A DNA stretch of 64,000 nt, taken from the NCBI GenBank assembly GCA_021108415.1, contig JAIOQX010000003.1, forward strand, positions 1 through 64,000. Reading direction: 5' to 3'. A model generated the notes under the pieces. It had not been told where the DNA came from, ran no database searches, and saw nothing but the letters and a program-made list of their open reading frames with translations. Below, piece after piece: positions 19,163-21,957 of this stretch (positions are counted from its first letter, which is position 1; every line of letters starts with the position of its first letter). Source of the DNA: Acholeplasmataceae bacterium. GTDB lineage: Bacteria > Bacillota_I > Bacilli_A > Acholeplasmatales > Acholeplasmataceae. A program made the position numbers and the translations under genes.

Positions 19163-19273
19163 AATTTTTTGGTGTTTATATAACGATAAGTCAAAAGTAA
19201 TGATAAAATGAAATTAACAAAAACACCAATAATTTATAGATGTTATTTGTATAGATAGTGTAAGGGGACAATT

Positions 19274-19798
19274 ATGGAACAAAATATGGATACTTTTATT
19301 CAAGAATTTAGAGAAAAAAATTATCAAAACTTTGATGATTTTTACATGCTTACAAATCGAAAAGTATATTATGCAATTATATCTATCGTCAAAGATGATC
19401 AAATTGCAGCTGACCTGTTACAAGATACTTTTATGAATTTTTTAAATAAGATTGATCAATATAAGCCTGGATCAAACATCTATGCATATCTTTCTAGAAT
19501 AGGAAGAAACTTAAGTATCAATTATTACAATAAATACAAAAAAGAAATTCATTCAGATCTCATCTTAGATTCAATCCAATCTGATGAAATCATAGACCAA
19601 AAAGATAAATTAGATATTTTAAAAATACTAAATTATCTTAATAAAGATCAAAGAGAAGTTATTGTGCTTCATGTTATTAATGAGTTCAAATTCAGAGAAA
19701 TTGCAGATATTATGGATAAACCCATTGGAACTATATTATGGATTTATAGTAAGGCAATAAAAATATTAAAAGAAAAGGTAGGTGTTTCATATGAATAA
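19274..19798 (+). CDS. ECF-type RNA polymerase sigma factor
   Basis: Alternative sigma factor of 174 residues with region 2 (about 20-90, including ADLLQDTFMNFLNKIDQYKP and SRIGRNLSINYYNK) and region 4 (about 115-165, LNKDQREVIVLHVINEFKFREIAD). It directs polymerase to a stress- or envelope-type regulon not visible here. AAGGGGAC precedes the ATG. It overlaps the following membrane-protein gene by 8 bp, the usual arrangement for a sigma factor with its anti-sigma factor. The third gene carries an RsgI-type domain, so the signalling logic resembles SigI/RsgI, although the sigma factor itself looks ECF-like. Confidence 0.82.
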   Translation: MEQNMDTFIQEFREKNYQNFDDFYMLTNRKVYYAIISIVKDDQIAADLLQDTFMNFLNKIDQYKPGSNIYAYLSRIGRNLSINYYNKYKKEIHSDLILDSIQSDEIIDQKDKLDILKILNYLNKDQREVIVLHVINEFKFREIADIMDKPIGTILWIYSKAIKILKEKVGVSYE

Positions 19799-20864
19799 AA
19801 AAGAAGTTATCAATATCATAAAAACTAAAGCAGATGAAAAACAAATACCTAATCTTTCTATGCAAATACTAGAAAAAATGGAAAATCAGAGCGAATATGT
19901 ACAACAAGAAACAGTAATAACTCCTATACCTAGTAAGACTCGCAGACCAGTATTTGCAGCATTAACAACTGTTTTTGCATTACTTATATTGTTTCTTGCA
20001 TTTTCAGTTGCAAGATCAAATAGTGTAGATTTATTTTCAGATTCTAATTTTAGTGATTCAGTTGCACTATCTGCAGTCACTACGCTAAACTATATTTCAC
20101 AAGATAATCTTTTAGATGCAAGTGATAGCTATACAATGTTATTAGCTAATGAAGAAACTGAAGATCTTGTTGAAGATCAAATAGATGATGTTATGACATA
20201 TGCTCATTTGATGGAAGTACTATTAAGCAATGGTGATGATTATGATAAAGAGATAACCCAATCAAATTTAGATGGGTACGAAAAATGTATTACATTCACA
20301 CTTAATACACTTTTAGACGAACAAATGATTTATCAACTACATTACAATGAAGACATTAATTTGAATAAAGAGACTTATCAAGTAGAAGGATTATTAGTTG
20401 ATGGACTCGAATCTTATGAAATAAATATTGAAGGATCATTTAATGAAAAACAGTACACGCTGACATATCAACAAAATGCACAAAATTATATTCAAGTTAA
20501 ATATCAAGTTGAAAACTTAGATCAAGAACTATCCATAAATATTTATCGAAACAGTATATTAAATCAAGAAATAGCAATTACCTATAATAATTATCAAAAA
20601 GCAACCTTATCATTTATCTCAGGTCAAACTAAAGGGCAATATCAATTTGAAATCGAAACAATGCAGAATATGAAAATGATGAAAGTTAATTACATGATAG
20701 GTCAATCTGATCAAGGTTCTATAGATTTTAATTTTTCAGATGATGATGAAAGAAATTTTATTCTTACGATTAGACCAGCCAATAGAGCAGCATTTATCAT
20801 AGAAAAAATTAGAGAAAAACGAGAAAACCAAAGTCCCGGACAACAACAAAATGGAAAAAATTAA
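19791..20864 (+). CDS. Single-pass membrane protein, putative anti-sigma factor
   Basis: From the ATG at 19791 the protein has a cytoplasmic N-terminus of about 50 residues, one membrane helix (VFAALTTVFALLILFLAFSV) and a roughly 285-residue external domain rich in Gln, Asn and acidic residues, with repeated beta-like segments. Topology, and the overlap with the sigma gene, suggest an anti-sigma factor; no zinc-binding HxxxCxxC motif is seen. AGGTAGGTG precedes the ATG. I do not recognise the external domain. The call rests on context and topology. Confidence 0.55.
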   Translation: MNKKEVINIIKTKADEKQIPNLSMQILEKMENQSEYVQQETVITPIPSKTRRPVFAALTTVFALLILFLAFSVARSNSVDLFSDSNFSDSVALSAVTTLNYISQDNLLDASDSYTMLLANEETEDLVEDQIDDVMTYAHLMEVLLSNGDDYDKEITQSNLDGYEKCITFTLNTLLDEQMIYQLHYNEDINLNKETYQVEGLLVDGLESYEINIEGSFNEKQYTLTYQQNAQNYIQVKYQVENLDQELSINIYRNSILNQEIAITYNNYQKATLSFISGQTKGQYQFEIETMQNMKMMKVNYMIGQSDQGSIDFNFSDDDERNFILTIRPANRAAFIIEKIREKRENQSPGQQQNGKN

Positions 20865-20925
20865 AAAATAACCAATAAAAATGTATTCTAAATTGTATAT
20901 AGAGTGAACAAGGAGGAATTAAAAA

Positions 20926-21957
20926 ATGAAAAATTTAAAATTTGTATTAAGCTTTGTAGTATTATTTGCGGTTGTAGCAACCATGATCGGGTGTGAGACA
21001 GCTCTTCAGGCTGAAGAGTTAAGTTATGTAACAATAGATATCAACCCAAGTGTTGAACTCATTGTTTCACCTAATGATAAAGTCATTGAAGCGAATGCTT
21101 TAAATGAAGATGCGGAAGTTCTACTTTCAGAACTTGACTTAATCGGTATGGATTTAGAAGTTGCAATTGATTTAATTATCCAAACATCAATAGAATTAGG
21201 ATATATTTCAGTTGATGAAGATGTAGAAACATTTGTTGAAGTTTCAACAATCTCATGTGATGAAGCAATTAGAAATCAAATTCATGAAAAAGTTAAAGAA
21301 CAAATCAATCTAGCATTTCAAAAAAGAGGAATGTTAGGCAGATCACAAGAAAAGACTTTTGATCAAGCATTTATTGATGAAGCAGCTAGTTATGGTGTAA
21401 CACCAGAATTTCTATTTCTTGCATATAAAGTTGTAGAACTTGATGACACATATACTATAGAACAAGCAGTAGCTTTAACTGATGAAGAAGTTTTTGAAAT
21501 TGTAAAATATGCAAGAGAACAAAAACAAGGATTAGTAGTAGAAGTTAGAAATCAATTTTTCGAAGACAGACAAGAACTATTTGATACATATCTTCCACAA
21601 ATTCAAAGTATTGAAGCACAAATCATTGATATTCAAGCACAAATTGATGCTTTAGAAGAAGGTGCAGATGCATCTACACTTCAAGCAACACTTGATGATT
21701 TAAATGTTCAATTATTAGCATTAAAAGATACTTTCCATGGTGAAGTTGCGTTGTTAAGAGAATCTTTTCAAGCTCAAAGAAGCGCTTATCAAGAACAATT
21801 TAAACAAGAAAAACAACAAAGAAAAGAACAACACCAAGAACTAGTGAATCAATTTAATGAAGAAAAAGCAGAACGCATCAATCGTATGCAAGATAGAATT
21901 GATCAATTCCAAGGTAAATCAGATAATAATAACGGATCATCTAATGGTAAATCATAA
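20926..21957 (+). CDS. Lipoprotein with RsgI-like DINPS domain and coiled-coil tail
   Basis: A 343-residue lipoprotein (signal MKNLKF to ATMIGC, lipid Cys23). Residues 33-90 (SYVTIDINPSVELIVSP, then NALNEDAEVLL) closely resemble the conserved extracellular domain of RsgI anti-sigma factors, which in clostridia is cut autoproteolytically at Asn-Pro (here Asn40-Pro41). The C-terminal part from about residue 200 is a charged Gln/Glu/Lys-rich coiled coil. A strong AAGGAGG precedes the ATG. In known RsgI proteins this domain sits on the anti-sigma itself; here it is a separate secreted protein, 61 bp after the putative anti-sigma gene. Confidence 0.7.
   Translation: MKNLKFVLSFVVLFAVVATMIGCETALQAEELSYVTIDINPSVELIVSPNDKVIEANALNEDAEVLLSELDLIGMDLEVAIDLIIQTSIELGYISVDEDVETFVEVSTISCDEAIRNQIHEKVKEQINLAFQKRGMLGRSQEKTFDQAFIDEAASYGVTPEFLFLAYKVVELDDTYTIEQAVALTDEEVFEIVKYAREQKQGLVVEVRNQFFEDRQELFDTYLPQIQSIEAQIIDIQAQIDALEEGADASTLQATLDDLNVQLLALKDTFHGEVALLRESFQAQRSAYQEQFKQEKQQRKEQHQELVNQFNEEKAERINRMQDRIDQFQGKSDNNNGSSNGKS

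Follow-up and report, generated by a model that had tools for sequence, protein, structure and literature searches.

A predicted three-component ECF sigma factor module with a SEAL-domain lipoprotein in a wall-less Acholeplasmataceae bacterium

We analysed a window of 64,000 nt from contig JAIOQX010000003.1 of an Acholeplasmataceae bacterium (assembly GCA_021108415.1). At positions 19274-21957 it carries three genes in the order SIG (ECF sigma factor, 174 aa; 19274..19798), MEM (single-pass membrane protein and predicted anti-sigma factor, 357 aa; 19791..20864) and RSG (lipoprotein with a SEAL domain and a helical coil, 343 aa; 20926..21957); these and all other features given below are on the forward strand. 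The start codon of MEM is the ATG at 19791, and the gene shares 8 nt with SIG. A first-pass annotation, made from the sequence alone, had placed the three genes at the same coordinates, with the sigma gene overlapping that of the membrane protein, and we confirm both statements. A ribosome-binding site, AAGGAGG, can be read from the sequence ahead of RSG at 20910..20916. Two predicted promoters share the form ACCAATAA-N16-GTATA: P1, the promoter of SIG (19225..19253), and P2, the promoter of RSG (20871..20899), which lies directly 3′ of the MEM stop codon.

The assignment of SIG comes from Pfam and NCBIfam. Both sigma-70 regions 2 and 4 were found (Pfam E-values of 3e-10 and 1e-8), and the protein scores above the cut-off of the ECF superfamily model (sigma70-ECF, E-value 3e-21), in agreement with the earlier description of SIG as an ECF-type sigma factor. 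On the same matches we reject an identification of SIG as SigI, whose model was absent among the best 25 of 83 NCBIfam matches for this protein. Another gene of the sigma-70 family lies elsewhere (L075:3508-4023; G000 contig C1, ∼598 kb), with secE/nusG-like genes and an rRNA-methyltransferase-like gene as neighbours.

The AF2 model of MEM has two short N-terminal helices, one transmembrane helix (residues 54-75, 19950..20015, from AF2 secondary structure and sequence) and a large outer domain. The head (residues 1-53, 19791..19949), for which AF2 confidence is moderate (block means 63-77), is predicted to be cytoplasmic and to bind the sigma factor. Searches of Pfam and NCBIfam gave no family match for MEM, including no anti-sigma domain. 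Still, MEM lies next to SIG, passes the membrane once and has its N-terminus on the cytoplasmic side, the arrangement expected of an anti-sigma factor in an ECF module. Furthermore, its head aligns to the heads of transmembrane proteins with an RsgI_M domain that are encoded directly after ECF-like sigma factors (HHalign 93.5%, score 33.7); in a control with 30 column shuffles the score was at most 14.2. By this profile alignment the MEM head is homologous to the N-termini of RsgI_M-type anti-sigma factors, a result that supports the earlier proposal of the membrane protein as a likely anti-sigma factor.

We call the outer domain of MEM (residues 78-357, 20022..20861) ECTO. It consists of two helices and a 15-strand meander and has no Pfam entry. 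Pfam found no RsgI_M match in MEM, and comparison of profiles detected no sequence relation between ECTO and SEAL (0.1%), which leaves the idea of ECTO as a diverged SEAL domain without sequence support. The ECTO fold gave no confident structural match (best Foldseek E-value 0.05; best VIA Z 7.2, within the usual noise).

RSG begins with a signal peptide ending in a lipobox-like site at C23 (residues 1-23, 20926..20994), and a lipoprotein signal peptidase is encoded in the genome. The RsgI_M, or SEAL, domain follows at residues 33-161 (21022..21408; Pfam E-value 4e-25), and AF2 places two long helices, 204-242 and 250-328, in a predicted coiled coil (21535..21909). The AF2 model of RSG (pLDDT 88) matches the B. 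subtilis RsgI structure 8t9n with a Foldseek E-value of 7e-6 and a VIA-align Z of 12.3 (rmsd 2.1 over 105 residues). The SEAL domain is thus real, by sequence and by fold. The lack of a structural match of residues 33-90 to RsgI had been named beforehand as one of two outcomes that would refute the first-pass annotation, and the match was found; the description of RSG as a separate lipoprotein with an RsgI-type domain, an Asn-Pro and a long coil stands as well.

When PDB sequences were searched by profile, the B chains of five solved RsgI entries from C. thermocellum were seen to start at the Pro aligned to P41 of RSG, as expected if the protein is cut ahead of this Pro, and the predicted cleavage bond therefore maps to N40-P41 (21043..21048). 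The SEAL domain of RSG probably cleaves itself at this position. In one RSG orthologue (L038:348-1397, G312) the Asn is missing and a Ser/Thr-rich stretch of ∼31 residues is inserted directly ahead of the conserved Pro; cleavage of RSG may therefore not be essential. Two further observations concern genes of this kind: the RSG gene of L059:439-1429 (G359) is in two overlapping frames, owing to a frameshift or a sequencing error, and one 895-residue open frame (G062 contig C7:108490-110571) encodes three consecutive RsgI_M domains.

With RSG alone as the query there were no contig matches; its relatives were found by an alignment-based scan of contigs. The order SIG-MEM-RSG recurs in ∼30 Acholeplasmataceae genomes, among them those of Acholeplasma granularum ATCC 19168, Peloplasma aerotolerans and Tenericutes bacterium MO-XQ (L194, L177 and L169, respectively). 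Among 30 full-length RSG orthologues 29 have the lipobox-like Cys (the one in L056 has no lipobox) and 29 have the motif [DE]xNPS. Because the gene order is the same in so many related genomes and both RSG motifs are conserved, the operon is not a chance observation. No match to a penicillin-binding transpeptidase was found in the genome and the relatives are Acholeplasmataceae, in support of a wall-less host, as had been supposed.

The promoter elements were derived from conserved sequence: the motif of P1 is common to the regions upstream of SIG orthologues. Exact matches to ACCAATA-N16-18-GTATA occur at three places in the genome, one before SIG, one between MEM and RSG and one ∼60 bp before a gene for a DUF2202 lipoprotein, and in the closest relative (G124) the DUF2202 lipoprotein gene is likewise the third target. 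RSG orthologues retain a promoter of their own; a strict pattern finds it in 24 of 31 (mean 0.01 after shuffling). Across 61 genomes of the family, CCAATAA-N16-GTATA has 81 matches (vs 14 for the reversed control) in the 26 operon-bearing genomes and 8 (vs 16) in the 35 genomes without the operon; the sites of the operon itself, which supplied the motif, are part of these counts. The conserved ECF-like motif before SIG thus tracks the presence of the operon, and P1 would be the autoregulated promoter of the SIG operon.

A further promoter site lies 42-75 bp before a subtilase gene in ten relatives (identified by Pfam in one of the ten, by phmmer in the others). The DUF2202 lipoprotein in this genome and the subtilase in the ten relatives are therefore predicted as further SIG targets. 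No exact promoter match belongs to the one subtilase of the window's genome (C2:142502, a 628-codon open frame), which is for this reason not claimed as a target. Where no plausible start followed closely, as in L152, L156, L161 and L162, a pattern match was left out of the target count. Genome G081 has a near-identical copy of the promoter of the G089 sigma operon (L130:420-470); no such operon was found in G081, and this promoter is probably a relic.

The first-pass annotation had read the operon as a split SigI/RsgI system. Its label does not hold: SIG is an ECF sigma factor, and no match to RsgI_N was found in MEM (Pfam) or anywhere in the genome, with a positive B. subtilis control. Nor is the operon a split RsgI, since MEM is a complete predicted anti-sigma factor with an outer domain of its own, one unrelated in sequence to SEAL. 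In SigI/RsgI the SEAL domain lies directly outside the transmembrane segment of the anti-sigma factor; here it is in a separate lipoprotein. A sensor in two parts is still plausible.

The three-gene layout extends beyond the ∼30 genomes. Of 296 genomes sampled from the class, 81 have ECTO, and 19 of 20 fetched ECTO loci encode a sigma factor and two ECTO proteins, a transmembrane anti-sigma factor and a lipoprotein; the remaining locus shows only the lipoprotein. A further 11 loci have SEAL in both proteins. Each has a sigma gene and two RsgI_M genes, the first of them for a transmembrane protein; the second is adjacent in ten of the loci and ∼4 kb away in L087, and where the N-terminus of its protein was read, it is lipobox-like. 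The layout is thus a general one: a sigma factor, a membrane anti-sigma factor and a lipoprotein, the last two usually with the same type of outer domain. In ECTO systems as in RsgI_M systems, the lipoprotein gene often has a separate promoter of a related type. The window's genome contains a second three-gene system (L074:2655-5527; G000 contig C1, ∼544-547 kb) with an ECTO lipoprotein, an ECF sigma factor and an ECTO anti-sigma factor; its lipoprotein gene has a similar promoter, with GTTTAT replacing GTATAT.

The operon in the window is a hybrid, with an ECTO anti-sigma factor and a SEAL (RsgI_M) lipoprotein. Its mirror image, an RsgI_M anti-sigma factor with an ECTO lipoprotein, was found on a contig of a Clostridia MAG (L213:4264-6925), where the lipoprotein matches a profile built from MEM orthologues only (E-value 5e-24). 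In the tree of sigma factors those of window-type hybrids group with ECTO-system sigmas (SH-aLRT 96) and that of the mirror hybrid groups with RsgI_M-system sigmas (SH-aLRT 97). On the simplest reading, the tree suggests two exchanges in opposite directions, both of the lipoprotein; the second exchange is the weaker case, because it involves a long branch and a single MAG contig. Exchange of outer domains points to a working relation between anti-sigma factor and lipoprotein. If the contact between them were homotypic, made by outer domains of one type, hybrids should not work; any contact is therefore of another kind.

Known systems resemble the module in parts. RsgI of B. subtilis and C. thermocellum shares with RSG the SEAL fold and the Asn-Pro motif, and RsgI systems likewise have an outward-facing domain within a sigma operon (PMC12203970). 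Autocleavage is the first step of RsgI signalling; RsgI8 has no Asn-Pro motif and does not cleave itself (PMC12203970). RsgI, which controls SigI, has RsgI_N, a transmembrane segment and SEAL in one protein (PMC12203970), whereas the present operon has SEAL on a lipoprotein, a sigma factor of ECF type, an anti-sigma factor with a different outer domain and no RsgI_N.

In the RpoE-RseA-RseB system of E. coli and AlgU-MucA-MucB of P. aeruginosa a sigma factor, a membrane anti-sigma factor and an extracytoplasmic protein are also encoded together, under an autoregulated promoter (here predicted from sequence). RseB is encoded in the rpoE operon, binds the outer domain of the anti-sigma factor and protects it against cleavage (PMC8103513, PMC7400510). 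As expected of a partner of the RseB/MucB kind, RSG is encoded with SIG and MEM and is predicted to be exported, and RseB is most likely its nearest functional analogue. The two differ in that RseB is not a SEAL protein and that anti-sigma factor and partner here usually have the same type of outer domain; binding of RSG to MEM is putative. RseB was absent among the structural matches listed for RSG, whose fold is SEAL plus coil, an absence that is no proof. Streptomyces SigE-CseA is similar in having a lipoprotein encoded beside an ECF sigma factor, and loss of CseA raises the sigma promoter; unlike the module described here, that system has no anti-sigma factor, and CseA acts together with a two-component system (PMC6767563).

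Our preferred reading, to which we give a probability of about 60%, is an ECF sigma module of three components that monitors the cell surface, with RSG as a sigma-induced partner. We infer its working from the computed gene identities, SEAL fold, cleavage-bond position, conservation, promoter motif, architecture and outer-domain exchange. The cytoplasmic N-terminus of MEM would hold SIG, and ECTO would do the sensing. SIG would be freed once MEM is lost, most likely through regulated proteolysis (Peptidase_M50 matches in the genome, one of them strong, are site-2 protease candidates), and would then transcribe its own operon from P1 and, from the separate P2, RSG, plus a few other surface proteins. 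The lipid would hold RSG on the outer face of the membrane, where self-cleavage of SEAL, probably at N40-P41, would leave the coiled-coil part attached only non-covalently. In an RseB-like role, RSG would most likely feed back on MEM or share its signal.

This partner role is suggested by gene order, promoter and domain exchange, and an effector role would fit nearly as well. RSG could be a regulon output rather than a sensor: anchored by its lipid, it would serve as a surface or structural protein in the repair or covering of the membrane. Lipoprotein and anti-sigma factor would often have a domain in common because both recognize the same target, just as RsgI sensors have domain types in common with the enzymes they control. 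The sigma-type promoter and strong ribosome-binding site of RSG, the surface proteins among the other predicted SIG targets and the long coil, which sensing does not need, all suit such an output; we nevertheless consider it rather unlikely, as the lipoprotein stays beside sigma and anti-sigma factor in dozens of genomes and with two types of outer domain, whereas the other targets vary between genera.

The two-part sensor of the first-pass annotation, in which detection falls primarily to RSG and the self-cleaved SEAL fragments, on coming apart, directly cause SIG to be released through MEM, draws on the conserved N40-P41 aligned with cleaved RsgIs, the separate lipid anchor and the conserved operon. 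It appears improbable given that MEM has a large outer domain of its own, that most modules of the class have an ECTO lipoprotein and do not need the Asn-Pro motif, that the L038 orthologue has no Asn and that a SIG-type promoter of RSG suits feedback better than primary detection. That MEM is no anti-sigma factor, with SIG under transcriptional control only and the operon a set of co-expressed surface genes, would accord with the missing Pfam anti-sigma domain and the short, moderately confident head, but is very improbable in view of the 8-nt overlap with SIG, the conserved head homologous to RsgI_M-type membrane proteins beside ECF-like sigmas and the same architecture in dozens of loci.

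The partner reading has a bolder form, which we offer tentatively and at less than even odds. In it, the modules would make a widespread class in which the anti-sigma factor has the sigma-induced lipoprotein as its obligate co-sensor and outer domains are interchangeable; the lipoprotein of the SEAL version would be a breakaway anchor that cleaves itself and signals mechanical or lipid stress in wall-less cells.

Open-licence literature naming Acholeplasma with an ECF sigma factor or anti-sigma factor contained no paper on such a system, and in open-licence papers we found no description of a sensor kind with this layout and exchangeable outer domains. Envelope-stress sensing by ECF sigma factors in wall-less bacteria is almost undescribed in this literature. 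The SEAL domain, so far described as a switch inside membrane anti-sigma factors, is here on a lipid anchor, and the exchange of outer domains can serve as a natural experiment in the passage of external signals to an anti-sigma factor. The operon offers a defined module, with a predicted promoter and predicted targets, that is testable in cultured relatives, for instance Acholeplasma granularum or Peloplasma aerotolerans.
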